Shown here: piece after piece, positions 1,943 to 37,741 of the stretch
How positions within the stretch are numbered: the first letter of the stretch is position 1
How the letters are laid out: each line of letters starts with the position of its first letter
Program-made: the position numbers and the translations under genes
Assembly: GCA_903828645.1 (NCBI GenBank)
Contig: CAIKNA010000286.1
Location: 1 to 45,689 of the forward strand
Source: an uncultured Bacteroidales bacterium
GTDB lineage: Bacteria > Bacteroidota > Bacteroidia > Bacteroidales > FEN-979
Length of the DNA stretch: 45,689 nucleotides
Reading direction: 5' to 3'
The notes under the pieces: model-generated
What the model was told of the DNA's origin: nothing
What the model saw: the letters and a program-made list of their open reading frames with translations, nothing else
Database searches by the model: none

Positions 1943-2845
1943 ATGGAAAAACATGCGCATCATCATGAATCGGTTGGGGCAAGGTTGCTGCTGGCCATCC
2001 TTCTGAACGGGTTGATCACCATCCTGGAGATTGCAGGGGGAATGATGTCGAACAGCCTCGCACTGGCCTCAGACGGCATTCATAACCTGGGGGATACGCT
2101 GGCGCTTATCCTTGCCTGGGTGGCAAGCAAAGTGGGCACACGCAAGCCAGATCAGAAGCGGACTTTCGGCTATCATCGCTTTGAAATTTTATCGGCTTTT
2201 ATCAATGCTTCCATCCTTACGGCTATTTCGATCTACCTGGGCTGGGAAGCCTTCCTGCGCTTTCTGCACCCGGAACAGGTAAAGTCGGTTCTGATGCTGA
2301 TTATCGCATCAGCAGGACTGTTCGTAAACCTGGGCTCCATGCTCTTTTTGAAACGGGATGCAAAAACAAGTCTGAACATCAAAGCTGCCTATGTTCATCT
2401 CCTGGGCGACACGCTTTCATCAGTGGCGGTGATAGCCGGTGCGATTCTTATCTATTTTACCCGGATGGTGTGGATTGATCCTGCGCTCACGCTGATCATC
2501 AGCATGGTGATCCTGATCCAGGCTTACCGGATCCTGCGCGAATCTGTTGACATTCTGATGCAAAGCACTCCCCCGGACCTGATCCTTTCGAAAATCAAAC
2601 TAAAGATCGAAGAGCATCCCCTTGTAAGGAATGTACATCACATTCATTGCTGGCAACTCCAGGATCACGACATCCTGTTCGAAGCACACATCGAAACCTC
2701 GAGGGATATGTTGCTGAGTGAATCCTGCAAACTGCTGGCGGAGATTGAACAGCAACTCATGGAAAATTTTCACATTTCCCACACCACCCTGCAGGTTGAA
2801 TTTGAGGCATGCATTGATACTGAGATGATCCGGCAACCGGGGTGA
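1943..2845 (+). CDS. Cation diffusion facilitator (CDF) family metal exporter, CzcD-like
   Basis: This 300-residue inner-membrane protein should export Zn(II) or related divalent metals in exchange for protons. It has a short His-rich N-terminus (HAHHH at 4-8) and about six membrane segments. The two intramembrane metal sites are DGIHNLGD (D44, H47, D51) in TM2 and HLLGD (H152, D156) in TM5. A cytoplasmic C-terminal domain with conserved HHIHCWQL follows. The ATG follows a TAnnTTTG promoter almost directly. Its stop is 1 bp from the stop of the convergent sugar transporter. Metal specificity cannot be read from the sequence. It lies about 1.3 kb from the mercury-methylation operon but is not part of it. 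Confidence 0.92.
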   Translation: MEKHAHHHESVGARLLLAILLNGLITILEIAGGMMSNSLALASDGIHNLGDTLALILAWVASKVGTRKPDQKRTFGYHRFEILSAFINASILTAISIYLGWEAFLRFLHPEQVKSVLMLIIASAGLFVNLGSMLFLKRDAKTSLNIKAAYVHLLGDTLSSVAVIAGAILIYFTRMVWIDPALTLIISMVILIQAYRILRESVDILMQSTPPDLILSKIKLKIEEHPLVRNVHHIHCWQLQDHDILFEAHIETSRDMLLSESCKLLAEIEQQLMENFHISHTTLQVEFEACIDTEMIRQPG

Positions 2846-2846
2846 A

Positions 2847-3995
2847 TCAGGCTTTTTTCAGGCTGAAGGCGGTGAACAGCAGGTATAACATCGCTATGAG
2901 CAATACGGCCAGCCCCCCGGCCTGCCCCATGGCATCGGAAACGACCCCCATCAGGGGAGGAATTACGGCACCCCCGGCTACGCCCATGATCATCAGTCCT
3001 GAGATCTCATTGGCACGCCCTGGCATCTTCAGCAAGGCAGCGGAGAAAATAATGGAAAAGACGTTGGCCACGGCAAATCCGATTACAAAAACCAGTACCA
3101 GGATTGCCCAGAGGTTATTCAGCATAAGCAAGGAAACCATACCGATAATGGCAACGAACATGCTGATGATGAAAAATTTCCTTGCGGGAAACTTTACCAG
3201 GAGGATGGCTCCAATAAAAGTTCCCGTGGTCCGGGCAATAAAGTACAAACTGGTACCCAAACCTGCCTGACTCAGGAGAATGTGGCATCGCTCCATCAGG
3301 AATTTTGGAACCGTGATGTTCAGCCCTACGTCAATCCCGACAACGGAAATGATGCCAAGGAAGAACATCAGGATGGTTTTATCATTCAGCAAACCGAAAC
3401 AGGCTGCAAAAGAGGATGTTTTCCCTTCGACCGGTTTCTCCTCAATCGGGGTGAGCAGCAGCCACAGTGTGGAAAGCAGGGTAACGGCCGCAAAGATCGG
3501 GAAGAGCATCTTCCAGTTGTGAAGACCTGCCGCGGCAAAACCTGCAATTACCGGGCCCAGAAAGGAGGCAATGGCTTTGATAAACTGTCCCCAGGTGAGG
3601 CTGCTGGTAAGGCGGTCGCCACGTACAACATTGGAAAGCAGCGGGTTGAGTGATACCTGGAGGATCGTATTCCCGATACCAAGGAGGGCAAAAGCCACCA
3701 GGACCACCTCAAACCTGTAGGCAATCAACGGGACCAGCATGGCCACGAAGGTGACGGCCATGCTCAGCACGACGGTTTTTTTCCGACCGATCGAATTCAT
3801 CAGCAGCCCGGTCGGAACGGCGAATACGCCAAACCAGAGGAAGACCATCATCGGCAACAGGTTGGCCAGCGAGTCGCTCAGGCTGAAATCCTGTTTGATG
3901 TAATTGGTGGCTATGCCAACCACATCGACAAATCCCATGATAAAAAACCCGAACAAAACGGGCAGCAGTCTGGAGAAGGAGTTTTCGTTTTTCAT
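2847..3995 (-). CDS. Sugar MFS transporter of the FHS (fucose/glucose permease) type
   Basis: This 382-residue, 12-segment major-facilitator protein has the FHS-type N-terminus (FFIMGFVDVVGIATNYIKQ) and the cytoplasmic loop NSIGRKK after TM2. It probably imports a hexose or deoxyhexose with protons across the inner membrane. There are no enzymes nearby to fix the substrate. It reads away from the hgc operon, sharing a 175-bp divergent intergenic region that carries a promoter for each direction and two short palindromes. It is slightly short for the family (about 400-430), but both ends are intact. Confidence 0.88.
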   Translation of the reverse strand: MKNENSFSRLLPVLFGFFIMGFVDVVGIATNYIKQDFSLSDSLANLLPMMVFLWFGVFAVPTGLLMNSIGRKKTVVLSMAVTFVAMLVPLIAYRFEVVLVAFALLGIGNTILQVSLNPLLSNVVRGDRLTSSLTWGQFIKAIASFLGPVIAGFAAAGLHNWKMLFPIFAAVTLLSTLWLLLTPIEEKPVEGKTSSFAACFGLLNDKTILMFFLGIISVVGIDVGLNITVPKFLMERCHILLSQAGLGTSLYFIARTTGTFIGAILLVKFPARKFFIISMFVAIIGMVSLLMLNNLWAILVLVFVIGFAVANVFSIIFSAALLKMPGRANEISGLMIMGVAGGAVIPPLMGVVSDAMGQAGGLAVLLIAMLYLLFTAFSLKKA

Positions 3996-4101: not shown

Positions 4102-4115
4102 ACGTATTATTACGT
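4102..4115. promoter_or_regulatory. Inverted repeat ACGTA-N4-TACGT, possible operator of the hgc operon
   Basis: This inverted repeat has perfect 5-bp arms around TTAT. It starts 31 bp before the TATATTTG element and so overlaps the expected -33 region of the hgc operon promoter. That is a plausible repressor or activator site. No ArsR- or MerR-type gene is in the window, so the regulator, if any, is encoded elsewhere. Confidence 0.35.
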
Positions 4116-4132
4116 TATTTAAAAAGATGATG

Positions 4133-4140
4133 TATATTTG
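4133..4140 (+). promoter_or_regulatory. -7 promoter element (TATATTTG) of the hgc operon
   Basis: This TAnnTTTG match lies 31 bp before the ATG at 4171. The next three genes follow with gaps of 4 and 6 bp and a 4-bp overlap, so this is the likely single promoter for all four. Confidence 0.65.
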
Positions 4141-4170
4141 TTGCGGTTCACAATATTCAGAGAGGCATCC

Positions 4171-4461
4171 ATGGAAAAAGATCATAACGAAAAAATCCCG
4201 GTTGAAAACAAGCCTGATCCGCAGGATTGCGGGTGCGAAGGAAACTGCTGTCCACCTAAAAAAAACAACCTGCTCACAAAGGTGATCTTCATGGTTGTCG
4301 TCCTGATGGCCATCGGCATCATCGCGGTCAAACTCTTTCACCATTCTGACCCTGTTGCCGAGAAGCAGACACAATGCACCCCCGGTTCGGGTTGCTGCGA
4401 TACCGTCAAAGCCGCATCGTGCGATACCACCAAAGGTTCCTCATGCTGCCCTAAAAAATAG
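4171..4461 (+). CDS. Small cysteine-rich single-span membrane protein, first gene of the hgc operon
   Basis: I do not recognise a named family. The protein has 96 residues and ten cysteines. Residues 1-33 hold CGC (20-22) and CC (26-27) in CEGNCCPP. One membrane helix spans about 34-56 (VIFMVVVLMAIGIIAVKLF). The tail holds C69, CC (75-76), C84 and CC (92-93), ending SSCCPKK. Vicinal cysteine pairs thus occur on both sides of the membrane, a pattern suited to binding soft metals or exchanging thiols. The in-frame TTG at 4138 is part of the promoter, so the ATG at 4171 is the start. The next gene begins 4 bp after its stop, and the set continues into hgcA and hgcB. A role in mercury or thiol handling is inferred from context only. 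Confidence 0.72.
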   Translation: MEKDHNEKIPVENKPDPQDCGCEGNCCPPKKNNLLTKVIFMVVVLMAIGIIAVKLFHHSDPVAEKQTQCTPGSGCCDTVKAASCDTTKGSSCCPKK

Positions 4462-4465
4462 CCGT

Positions 4466-5167
4466 ATGCACACATGGATAAACCAGGTCCTGGCCAGCGA
4501 GCATGCGACCATTACCGTTCTGACAGCAGTATTCCTGATGGGCATGATCAGCGTGGTGACCTGCGGGTGTAATTTCGCGGTGATCGGTGTCGTTGCCGGA
4601 TACACAGGGGCCAGTTCTTCATCGGGAGATAAAAGAGCAATATACCTGAGAGGATTTTCTTTTCTCATCGGAGCGGTTATTTCCATGGCTGTAATCGGAT
4701 CGTTGTTCGGGTTTGCAGGCAGGATCATCAGCAATTCCCTGGGGAGTTACTGGAAAATAGCTGCGGGGCTCATCGCCATCCTTTTCGGCCTCTATTCCAT
4801 GGACCTGGTTCCATTTAAAATTCCCGGGCTTAACATCAAACCGAGCCGGTCGCGGCAAAATATTTTTTCAGCCATCCTCTTCGGGCTGGCTATCGGGGGG
4901 CTCTCAACTGCCCTGAATTCATGCTGCAACCCGGTTTTCCCGGTCATACTTGCTGCCTCTTTCGTGAAGGGAAGCGCTGTTTGGGGGCTGATGATGCTGA
5001 CAGCATTTGCACTTGGATACGGAATCCCGCTTGCCGCGATGATCGTCGGGTTCAGCCTGGGGCTGGGAAAAGTTTCAAAAACACTCACCGTGATCGGAAC
5101 AATTGCAAAATACGGCGGAGGAATTGCCTTGGTAACCCTGGGTTTCTATTTCCTTTTAACCCTTTAG
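4466..5167 (+). CDS. CcdA/DsbD-like transmembrane thiol/metal transport protein in the hgc operon
   Basis: This 233-residue polytopic protein has about six membrane segments arranged as two similar halves, like the membrane domain of DsbD/CcdA (cytochrome c biogenesis transmembrane region). Those proteins pass electrons across the membrane using one cysteine in each half. Here the equivalent spots hold pairs: VTCGCNF (C33, C35) and NSCCNPVFPV (C153, C154), the second next to the conserved Pro. The doubled cysteines are unusual and would suit metal chelation as well as disulfide exchange. Upstream in-frame ATGs fall inside the previous gene, so the ATG at 4466 is preferred. hgcA starts 6 bp after its stop. 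A link to mercury methylation is inference from operon position. Confidence 0.8.
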   Translation: MHTWINQVLASEHATITVLTAVFLMGMISVVTCGCNFAVIGVVAGYTGASSSSGDKRAIYLRGFSFLIGAVISMAVIGSLFGFAGRIISNSLGSYWKIAAGLIAILFGLYSMDLVPFKIPGLNIKPSRSRQNIFSAILFGLAIGGLSTALNSCCNPVFPVILAASFVKGSAVWGLMMLTAFALGYGIPLAAMIVGFSLGLGKVSKTLTVIGTIAKYGGGIALVTLGFYFLLTL

Positions 5168-5173
5168 ATCATC

Positions 5174-6211
5174 ATGGAACCAGCCTTTATTTGTGGTCAT
5201 CTTCAAACGGGAGCAGGAATTGTTCCCCGGGTATTCACGACCTGGAGCCGCCAGGATCATCTGGATGCCATAAAAGTAAGATGGGCGGCCGGGAGGATGA
5301 ATTACCGTGTTTTGCCCGGGCTTTATGCCACAGGTGCTCCCGGCCGGAATTCACATGTGTTTGTTACCGGAAATTACAAACTCAGCTTCGACCATCTCAG
5401 GCGTGCCCTGAACGGGATCGACGCATGGATGCTCGTAATTGACACCAGGGGGATCAATGTATGGTGCGCTGCCGGGAAGGGCACTTTCGGGACAACAGAA
5501 CTGGCTAATCGTATCCGCCTTCATCACCTGGACCAGCTGGTGGATCACAGGAGACTGATCCTTCCGCAACTTGGGGCCACCGGGGTTGCCGCACATGAAG
5601 TGAAGAAGATGACCGGGTTCACCGTGGTATACGGCCCGGTGAAGGCCATCGATATCAGGGATTTTCTCGAAGCAGGGGAAAAATCCTGCGAATCGATGCG
5701 TCGGGTTACATTTCCCATGGCCGAGCGGCTGAAACTGATCCCGGTTGACCTGTTCTACGGAAAGTATTACCTGCTGATCGTACCCGCGGTTTTCTTTTTG
5801 CTTTCGGGTTTCACTCCGTCGGGATATTCGTTTGATCTTGCCCTCCATTCGGGATGGAAGACCACGGTAAACCTCTTTGCCGGTTACCTGTCGGGGTGTG
5901 CCCTGACCCCTGCCCTGCTGCCCTGGATTCCTTTTCGAAGTTTTTCCCTGAAGGGTCTTGCCACAGGCTGGCTGGTTGCCATTCTTCTAGCTTCGGCAGG
6001 CATGCTGGGATCGGGTGTGGGCGACCTGTTCCCGTGGTTCCTGATCCTGGGAGGAGTGTCGTCGTTCATGGCGATGAATTTCACCGGATCCTCCACCTTT
6101 ACTTCGCTTTCGGGTGTTCAGAAAGAGATGAAAACAGCTTTGCCTGTCCAGATTTCCATGGTGATTGTGGGCCTGGCGGGATGGATATTAACCAGATTTG
6201 TTGATCTATGA
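5174..6211 (+). CDS. hgcA: HgcA, corrinoid-dependent mercury methyltransferase
   Basis: HgcA carries a methyl group on its cobamide and transfers it to Hg(II), making methylmercury. It is a membrane protein with a cytoplasmic corrinoid domain. The 345 residues match the family length. The diagnostic cap-helix motif NVWCAAGKGTFGT is at 95-107, with C98 as the lower axial cobalt ligand. About five membrane helices follow (near 197-212, 230-250, 261-279, 285-303 and 322-342), and the family block MNFTGSSTFTSLSGV is at 301-315. The motif and the membrane domain distinguish it from the related CdhD/AcsC subunit of CO dehydrogenase/acetyl-CoA synthase. The start at 5174 lies 6 bp after the CcdA-like gene. 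The stop overlaps the hgcB start (ATGA). Nothing essential is missing. Confidence 0.95.
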   Translation: MEPAFICGHLQTGAGIVPRVFTTWSRQDHLDAIKVRWAAGRMNYRVLPGLYATGAPGRNSHVFVTGNYKLSFDHLRRALNGIDAWMLVIDTRGINVWCAAGKGTFGTTELANRIRLHHLDQLVDHRRLILPQLGATGVAAHEVKKMTGFTVVYGPVKAIDIRDFLEAGEKSCESMRRVTFPMAERLKLIPVDLFYGKYYLLIVPAVFFLLSGFTPSGYSFDLALHSGWKTTVNLFAGYLSGCALTPALLPWIPFRSFSLKGLATGWLVAILLASAGMLGSGVGDLFPWFLILGGVSSFMAMNFTGSSTFTSLSGVQKEMKTALPVQISMVIVGLAGWILTRFVDL

Positions 6212-6504
6212 CCGGATTCGTATACCTTACAGATGTAGTGACCCTTCAACTGGATGTTGAAAAATGCACCGGTTGCCGGATGTGCCTGATGGTTTGCCCC
6301 CATGCTGTTTTTGAGATTGAAAATAAAAGAGCGTCAATCCGCAACAGGGACTTTTGCATGGAGTGCGGGGCCTGTTCGAAAAATTGTCCCGAAGGCGCCA
6401 TCTCTGTAAAATCGGGCGTTGGCTGTGCAGCCGGCATCCTCAACGGACTTATCCGCGGGACGGAACCCACCTGCGATTGCGATTCAGGCGGCGGGTGTTG
6501 CTGA
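6208..6504 (+). CDS. hgcB: HgcB, ferredoxin partner of HgcA
   Basis: HgcB is a 2[4Fe-4S] ferredoxin thought to reduce the HgcA corrinoid and to bind or hand over Hg(II). The 98 residues contain two CX2CX2CX3C clusters: C20, C23, C26, C30 and C50, C53, C56, C60 (FCMECGACSKNCPEGAI). The extra conserved cysteine of the family is at C73 in GVGCA. The tail carries C89, C91 and the terminal pair C97-C98. Each is a known hallmark of HgcB that ordinary ferredoxins lack. The ATG at 6208 overlaps the hgcA stop by four bases, so translation should be coupled. It ends 5 bp before the convergent beta-barrel gene, and no hairpin terminator is visible between them. Confidence 0.95.
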   Translation: MTGFVYLTDVVTLQLDVEKCTGCRMCLMVCPHAVFEIENKRASIRNRDFCMECGACSKNCPEGAISVKSGVGCAAGILNGLIRGTEPTCDCDSGGGCC

Positions 6505-6509
6505 CAAAA

Positions 6510-7475
6510 CTATTCATCGTCCGTAGCACCGAAATGAATCAAAATGCGGAGGTACAGCCCGAAGGAGGGTTTAAAATCAGGGTAGTGCTCCAGGTTGGTG
6601 GGGTAATAGTGCGCAAAAAAACCGGGTTCAAGACCGAAGGCGGCAGTCAGTGGAATGCCGGCACCTACACCAAGGTATCCCCCAAACCCGAATGCATTCT
6701 GGTTGACCGTCATCGTTTGCTGGTTGTAACCCTGCTGATAGCCCTGACTTCCATAGATGTTTACCATGCTGTATTCCTTCCCTTCCACCACGAAAATTGA
6801 TTTGATCACCTGTGTATAACACATTGTCAGACCAGCCTGTATAAAGAGGTTGATCCTTGACTTCAGGGGAAAGGACCTTTGATATCCCAGGTCGATCATC
6901 ACCCGGCCCTCTCTGCCAATGACCTGTTCGCTGCGAAGATCAGGAAAGGAAAGATAGGTGTTGTTCGGATTCACCTGAAGGATGATGGCATCACCGGCTT
7001 TTAACTGGGCATAATTGGCCTGAAGGAAGATGCTGTTCTTCCTGTTAAAATTAATCCTCATAAACAAGCCGCCTGAAAAAGCAACACTGTAATGCATGTT
7101 CGTCGGATACCCATTGCCGTAGCGATCGGACTGGACACCGACTGAATCCGTCTGACTCAACCCCAGCAACTGTTGTATTTCACGATACCATGTCGGAGGA
7201 TTTTGGTTCTTCATGACATAATCGACATTATTGACATTGCCCGGGGTTCCGTTGTAAAAATTGGCAGCGTATTTGTTGGCGAAGTAGGCCCCAAAATTGA
7301 GACCGTATTCAAACTTCTTCAGCGGGAACGGATTCGGATCTTCCTTTTCATCCTTCATCCCGTGATTCCGGGTCTTGCTTTGTGCCTTTTTACCGGAAGA
7401 CGACGTGGCCTCCTGGCCGGATACAGAAACCGATATAATGAATAACGCTGTAAACAGGATCAGAAATGTACGCAA
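6510..7475 (-). CDS. Outer-membrane beta-barrel protein, unknown function
   Basis: This 321-residue protein has a signal peptide (RTFLILFTALFIISVSVSG, cleavage before about residue 21) and then a charged linker rich in Lys, Ser and Asp. About ten amphipathic beta strands follow, with glycine and aromatic residues alternating (YGLNFGAYFANKY, FSGGLFMRINF, GFGGYLGVGAGI, FGLYLRILIHFG). This resembles Bacteroidota PorT/OmpA-like barrels, but no specific family is recognised. Translation must start at the TTG at 7475. An in-frame stop lies just upstream, no ATG is available, and later starts would lose the signal peptide. A TAnnTTTG element lies 26 bp upstream. It is convergent with hgcB and unlikely to belong to that operon. 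Confidence 0.75.
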   Translation of the reverse strand: MRTFLILFTALFIISVSVSGQEATSSSGKKAQSKTRNHGMKDEKEDPNPFPLKKFEYGLNFGAYFANKYAANFYNGTPGNVNNVDYVMKNQNPPTWYREIQQLLGLSQTDSVGVQSDRYGNGYPTNMHYSVAFSGGLFMRINFNRKNSIFLQANYAQLKAGDAIILQVNPNNTYLSFPDLRSEQVIGREGRVMIDLGYQRSFPLKSRINLFIQAGLTMCYTQVIKSIFVVEGKEYSMVNIYGSQGYQQGYNQQTMTVNQNAFGFGGYLGVGAGIPLTAAFGLEPGFFAHYYPTNLEHYPDFKPSFGLYLRILIHFGATDDE

Positions 7476-37219: not shown

Positions 37220-37741
37220 CTAAGCAACGAACTGAAAATCCATCAGCCTGTTCATCCATCCCTTCCGGAATCTTTCCTGGGTGGGATCGTTCTGGATCAA
37301 ATCATCCAGGAATTTTATTCTGGCTTCTACCACCTTTGCGTGAAATTCCTGTTGATCCGCTGCATTTAATGCATCAATGGTCAGTGGTCCGACATTACCG
37401 TCATCCCCGACATTGAGCAACTGCTGGGGTATCTTAACTCCCCATTTTCCCGAGCCCCATACCCAGTCCACGAGGATCTCTGCTACCGACTGATTCTCGA
37501 TCAGGTCGGCTTTCCAGCGGTCCCAATAAAATTTTTTAAGGACAATGGTAGCATCATCCCTGGTGAGCAAACGCATGTCGTCGGCATCAATGTCGTTGTC
37601 GCCGTCCTTGTCATAACCGACCTGTCGCCAGGTTGCCAGCGTGACACCCATGTTTGTGGCGCCGCCACGATCTGTGGGATCATTTACAAACCCACCTTCC
37701 CATTTGAATATCTTAGGGGCCAAAAGAGTTACATCAGCCAT
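37220..37741 (-). CDS. GH108 family lysozyme (N-acetylmuramidase) with an EF-hand-like loop
   Basis: This 173-residue protein has the glycoside-hydrolase-108 start [20 protein letters not shown] (catalytic E15) and, at the C-terminus, the peptidoglycan-binding part [17 protein letters not shown]. The family includes phage-type endolysins and secreted muramidases. No signal peptide is present, so release would need a holin, lysis or another route. A calcium-binding-type loop [12 protein letters not shown] (44-55) is inserted after the catalytic region. No phage genes are nearby. It reads towards lysS and away from the deiminase gene. Confidence 0.88.

Follow-up and report, generated by a model that had tools for sequence, protein, structure and literature searches.

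A predicted ArsR-controlled cysR-ccdA-hgcAB operon at a site without ars genes in a Bacteroidales genome

The closest described relatives of the locus reported here are the HgcAB mercury-methylation pairs of the Bacteroidetes branch. Bacteroidetes hgcAB and high hgcA transcription in a fen have already been published (PMC7438021), as has the linkage of Bacteroidetes hgcAB with arsenic genes, including Bacteroidales of the Prolixibacteraceae in which hgcAB lies beside ars genes (PMC10504345), and according to a 2020 paper, methylation had by then not been assayed in any Bacteroidetes carrier with a sequenced genome (PMC7573106). The hgcAB of Desulfovibrio and Pseudodesulfovibrio is under a predicted ArsR-type repressor whose gene lies upstream and is co-transcribed (told in PMC7438021 and PMC10349881), and an ArsR-like protein is reported to control hgcAB in Pseudodesulfovibrio mercurii (Gionfriddo 2023, as told in PMC10349881). 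Here, we describe the hgcAB locus of a 45,689-nucleotide stretch, referred to below as the window, that comprises positions 1 to 45689 of contig C286 in a 409-contig, 5.1-Mb genome assembly of an uncultured Bacteroidales bacterium and that is probably chromosomal. The locus resembles the Bacteroidetes-branch systems in domain order, in the HgcA cysteine C98 (Cys93 of ND132), in the cysteine set of HgcB, and in having hgcA followed by hgcB, but it differs in that the operon includes the genes cysR and ccdA and that arsR is absent from the site with the predicted operator kept. In contrast to the Prolixibacteraceae, there are no ars genes at the window's site, and in contrast to Desulfovibrio and Pseudodesulfovibrio, arsR is found on another contig and is predicted to act in trans. 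A Bacteroidota hgcAB pair is by itself ordinary; the new part is the arrangement upstream. We consider it probable that cysR-ccdA-hgcAB is controlled in trans by ArsR, with the ars genes absent from the site and the operator retained, and that the window's HgcAB is a functional mercury-methylation system, this degree of confidence applying jointly to the explanation as a whole.

The predicted operator and the history of the site

The strongest new evidence consists of a palindrome found at two sites in the genome and a series of gene contents found at one chromosomal site among relatives. The palindrome, designated O1 (ACGTATTATTACGT, 14 bp, positions 4102..4115), lies ahead of cysR, fits the pattern ACGTA-N4-TACGT, and is a predicted ArsR operator. 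It is the sole match to this pattern in the window, where 0.02 would be expected, and the 5.1-Mb genome has exactly two sites that fit it, O1 and position 11466 of contig C67, compared with 9 matches per strand for the reversed-pattern control in the same genome. The C67 site precedes a one-strand run of genes encoding a thioredoxin-like protein, an FtsX/MacB permease, an ABC protein, and ArsR, ArsC, and Acr3; this genome retains arsR, arsC, and acr3 on C67, unlinked to hgcAB. On the forward strand, 17 nt after O1, is TATATTTG (4133..4140), which we take to be a Bacteroidota-type -7 promoter box, and the same arrangement is found in relatives. A scan of 187 fetched loci, selected for arsR-, cysR-, or hgcA-type genes and hence biased, recovered the palindrome (allowing a single mismatch) together with a TANNTTTG box at 14 distinct places, in 13 of which the two are separated by exactly 17 nt, and the same element stands before arsR operons in relatives.

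The ArsR encoded on C67 carries the stretch SRTTVNQHL, as do the ArsRs of loci L026, L033, L043, and L006, with SRTTINQHL in L077; this is presumably the recognition helix. The C67 ArsR is the one that we predict to act on O1, and on hgcAB, in trans. Binding of the shared palindrome by a different regulator is unlikely in our estimation; an ArsR-type protein encoded on contig C227, or something else, could fill the role. Each of the 14 distinct palindromes in the fetched loci precedes arsR, the thioredoxin-like head of an arsR operon, cysR, or hgcA (L050 and L149 were assigned by eye), and the linked ones have arsR as their shared regulator; the choice of loci biases this comparison, but the genome-wide count is free of that bias.

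The palindrome is also exact in the window and in genomes G808 and G798, where the stretches examined show no arsR. At these three sites, the bases flanking the -7 box (O2) are symmetrical in 1 of 4 pairs, compared with 2 to 4 pairs at the 11 arsR-linked sites, so that the lowest symmetry is seen at 3/3 unlinked and 0/11 linked sites (Fisher p 0.0027, in a post hoc comparison of related sites). G808 and the window may have a single loss event in common. Since O1 is exact and the symmetry of O2 has been lost, the pattern points to ArsR control in trans that has been relaxed but retained.

The chromosomal site is bordered on the left by a gene for an MFS transporter (2847..3995, reverse strand; PF07690) and on the right by a gene for a protein that by eye resembles an outer-membrane protein (6510..7475, reverse strand), for which there was no Pfam match and a single sub-threshold NCBIfam match (E 0.083; 12.6 bits, cut-off 300). 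From relatives, 19 stretches adjoining the outer-membrane-like gene were fetched, and both borders are present in 8; the other 11 (G797, G805, and nine whose outer-membrane gene is more distant) showed that gene only, and several are short. In G800, the borders are ~25 bp apart and the site is empty, without hgcA. The site of G811 holds arsR-arsC-arsM-acr3 and several kb of other DNA, and that of G804 ~4 kb of other DNA, both without hgcA. G799 and G802 have arsR-arsC-cysR-ccdA-hgcA-hgcB-acr3, G810 has arsR-arsC-hgcA-hgcB-acr3 without cysR-ccdA, G808 has cysR-ccdA-hgcA-hgcB only, as in the window, and the copy in G806 is decayed, with parts of ccdA and hgcA missing. (Some genomes and loci appear under more than one label: G808 is G394 and L027, G799 is G393, G802 is G396, G810 is G395 and L043, and G788 is G397, with locus L028.) The genus thereby offers a natural series of states for a single site: empty, with arsenic genes only, with arsenic genes and hgcAB and either with or without cysR-ccdA, with hgc genes only, and decayed. 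In G799, G802, and G810, the one acr3 of each genome is located at this site. It is likely that the window's site has lost its ars genes rather than never having had them. No remnant of arsR or acr3 was accepted in the flanks of the window: apart from self-matches of cysR, the tblastn matches listed were weak and none exceeded 33 residues. The HgcA of G810 clusters with those of L031 and L032 and not with that of the window despite the shared site, which suggests exchange of the island by transfer.

HgcA and HgcB

The first-pass annotation covered hgcA (5174..6211, forward strand; 345 aa) and hgcB (6208..6504, forward strand; 98 aa) and read them as an intact Bacteroidota mercury-methylation pair of high novelty. 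The intact pair and the methylation it was held to predict both stand, the latter as a fair prediction because the pair is intact, but the novelty of the pair alone does not, as such pairs are already in print, and the span considered missed the upstream cysR, ccdA, palindrome, and promoter of the same unit as well as the arsenic history of the site. HgcA scores 422.2 bits against the NCBIfam equivalog NF040863 (cut-off 275) and HgcB 123.7 bits against NF040864 (cut-off 99), and because both scores exceed their equivalog cut-offs, chance resemblance is excluded. The stretch NVWCAAGKGTFGT at HgcA residues 95-107, reported from the sequence together with C98, was confirmed, with N95, V96, W97, C98, and K102 identical in 67/67 aligned rows, and the MNFTGSSTFTSLSGV block is likewise present. 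C98 corresponds to Cys93 of ND132, the strictly conserved cysteine of the cap-helix motif described for HgcA (PMC7305189). The two CX2CX2CX3C clusters of HgcB, C73, and the terminal C97-C98 are all found as claimed: the cluster cysteines (20, 23, 26, 30, 50, 53, 56, and 60) and C73 are Cys in 65/65 aligned rows, and the C-terminal pair is retained in 58/65 (C97) and 55/65 (C98), with gaps (5 and 6) or other residues in the remaining rows. The ATGA overlap of the two genes lies at 6208-6211, and both frames are open.

The corrinoid domain of HgcA matches PF03599 (43.8 bits, cut-off 24.8), and in its predicted model (mean pLDDT 88.3), long helices come after an alpha/beta domain; the first Foldseek match of this model is the published HgcA model 9a0b, with chains of the corrinoid iron-sulfur protein (CFeSP) next. 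Misannotation of a CdhD/AcsC protein was rejected on profile scores, with 64.8 bits against the ACDS gamma equivalog NF003195 (cut-off 306) compared with the 422.2 bits for HgcA. The window's genome has a single hgcA and no second PF03599 protein; as HgcA is the sole match to that family, no CFeSP was found in the genome. In a rapidly built HgcA tree (67 rows), with SH-aLRT support only and without CdhD/AcsC rows, the window groups with L026, L077, and L027 (SH-aLRT 96), and this group nests in a set of 25 rows, each from Bacteroidota or the same order. A selenoprotein HgcA, a type listed in PMC13188914, was considered for L179, where a TGA at residue 344 is followed by a further stop at 346, and the TGA was read as the natural end.

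The arsenic context raises the question of whether HgcAB natively acts on arsenic or another metalloid, with mercury methylation as a side reaction. At 20/25 hgcA loci of the window's family (the decayed copy of G806 and the second copy of G788 set aside), arsR, arsC, arsM, or acr3 lies within ~1.5 kb, and the hgc operon is preceded by the predicted ArsR-type operator. However, co-location is no proof of a common substrate, the residues of HgcA and HgcB that are important for mercury are retained, and the hgcAB loci of the window, G808, G798, G790, and G817 have no ars gene in the stretch examined. We regard a native metalloid substrate as very unlikely.

CysR, CcdA, and a proposed mechanism

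Upstream of hgcAB on the same strand lie a gene that we name cysR (4171..4461), encoding a 96-aa protein with 10 Cys and, by eye, one hydrophobic helix, and a ccdA-like gene (4466..5167) encoding a membrane protein of the DsbD_TM/CcdA type with the motifs C33-x-C35 and C153-C154. With 4 nt between cysR and ccdA, 6 nt between ccdA and hgcA, and the 4-nt overlap of hgcA and hgcB, these genes constitute a tight predicted four-gene operon in which hgcAB comes last. Four cysteines of CysR (CGC..CC) precede the hydrophobic stretch and six are in a Cys-rich tail behind it; because the hydrophobic stretch comes after PPKK, the N-terminus is probably inside and the tail outside. CysR, scanned as the longer reading 4138-4461, had no match in Pfam or NCBIfam. 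The CcdA-like protein, scanned as 4472-5167, matches PF02683 (38.1 bits, gathering cut-off 27.1), and the best Foldseek match for its predicted model, which is weak, is CcdA 5vkv (E 4.2e-3). In an alignment without the window's row, position 35 is Cys in 28/28 and position 154 in 29/29 filled rows, and adding the window's row and one from ArsG leaves Cys 154 invariant and Cys 35 conserved at 90% or more. The protein was rejected as an ArsG permease at 30.2 bits against NF040495 (cut-off 200). It shares with the CcdA/DsbD transmembrane electron carriers the PF02683 domain and a Cys in each half, and possibly the fold, for which CcdA is the best, if weak, match. Known carriers of this kind have a single Cys per motif position, whereas the window's protein has the C-x-C and CC motifs, a Cys-rich partner in CysR, and an ars/hgc context.

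The association of this type of CcdA with hgcA extends beyond the window. In a sample of 393 genomes of the order, with hgcA called at E<=1e-40 and window-type CcdA at E<1e-20, 17 genomes have the CcdA and 15 of these also have hgcA (Fisher p 3.5e-19); six CcdA matches at 9e-13 to 7e-9 were excluded from the strong set, and their genomes are not among the 24 with hgcA. A search of 395 genomes of the phylum with CcdA yielded G570 as the sole extra strong match, with hgcA 25 nt behind, and four more weak matches (5e-13 to 8e-10). The ccdA end is at most 60 nt from the start of the hgcA match in 20 of 27 distinct loci with both genes, and across these loci HgcA and CcdA distances are correlated (Spearman 0.79; 0/2000 permutations as high), which shared descent alone could explain. 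A CcdA gene also precedes hgcA in Planctomycetota (L054, by 0.1 kb) and Chloroflexota (L052 and L053, by ~0.8 kb). The intervening gene of L052 encodes a protein that is lipoprotein-like by eye and ends in CCGGGVCP, and a Cys-rich partner therefore recurs there in another form. Within an open-access library, no paper mentioned hgcA together with either ccdA or cytochrome c biogenesis, and dsbD appeared with mercury methylation in a selenoprotein review only; the text of PMC10504345 accordingly contains neither of the first two terms.

Several observations weigh against a strict link between cysR-ccdA and hgcAB. A CcdA match at 1e-8 is lacking in nine of the 24 genomes with hgcA, a second cysR-ccdA pair of G196 has no ars or hgc genes within the 11 kb examined, and ccdA linkage switches ~13 times on the HgcA tree, an approximate count for which L057 (ccdA 6 kb from hgcA) was scored as unlinked and L010 as without ccdA, though a copy lies 1.7 kb upstream in its genome, G242. 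In addition, G154 and G094 carry cysR-ccdA beside arsR and arsM, in the orders arsR-arsC/arsM-cysR-ccdA-acr3 and arsR-arsM-cysR-ccdA, respectively, and hgcA was found in neither genome. These two loci, along with the distant relationship of the CcdA to ArsG permeases, fit the alternative that CysR-CcdA is a purely arsenic (methylarsenical) or general thiol-redox module, with hgcAB merely seated in an ars island and the promoter a fossil. We regard this as somewhat unlikely, as in both the window and G808 the site holds cysR-ccdA-hgcAB but no ars genes, the sole acr3 match in the G808 genome (93% complete) is below threshold (25.9 bits), and O1 is exact in both even though O2 has drifted. That CysR-CcdA also serves methylarsenite made by ArsM, as an export or detoxification module shared by two unrelated metal methylases under one ArsR, is possible but doubtful.

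Under ArsR control in trans, which we favor, the ArsR from C67 would bind O1 and repress cysR-ccdA-hgcAB, and arsenite or a similar soft metal would release it. HgcB would then reduce the corrinoid on HgcA, with Cys98 as ligand, and the methyl group would move to Hg(II). This step would follow HgcAB elsewhere, for which a Cys-on corrinoid, reduction by HgcB, and a requirement for Cys73 and a tail cysteine are described, and for which release of methylmercury is expected via an outside thiolate, possibly a protein Cys (PMC7305189). CysR is a candidate for that thiolate: CysR-CcdA would provide thiols, with CysR accepting or passing on Hg(II) or CH3Hg+ and CcdA conveying either reducing equivalents or the metal through the membrane, and CcdA may keep CysR reduced. 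We infer the ArsR binding, the inducer, the methylation, and the CysR-CcdA role, and the biochemical role of CysR-CcdA is the weakest link. If this mechanism is true, the arsenic level would set methylmercury gene expression even without an ars gene adjoining hgcAB, and gene-neighborhood surveys would overlook arsenic control of hgcAB. The same-site series of this genus makes it possible to test what induces hgcAB and how mercury enters the enzyme and methylmercury exits it.

Distribution of hgcA and neighboring features

The occurrence of hgcA in the order sample is patchy but not rare (24/393 genomes). It is present in 13/19 genomes of the window's genus, including the decayed copy of G806, and in 26/43 of its family at E<=1e-20, compared with 20/388 in the remaining order sample at E<=1e-40 (p 3e-18, with E limits that differ). 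Genome G788 has two hgcA copies, 70% and 59% identical to that of the window. Interrupted copies occur in L022 (G169), L148 (G806), and L186 (G815); assembly error is possible, and several lineages may be in the course of losing the trait.

Among neighboring genes, one for a rhodanese lies directly upstream of hgcA or cysR in L036, L003, L179, L183, L184, and L186. A gene for a cation efflux protein of the CDF family is located near the site in the window (1943-2845) and also occurs in G799. ArsC (LMW phosphatase) and ArsM are encoded in one frame, as an apparent fusion, at L031:4549-5844, L032:444-1862, and L109:1987-3216, with Pfam domains shown for L031. At 37220-37741, the window encodes a small protein that by eye resembles a phage-type lysozyme or secretion activator.
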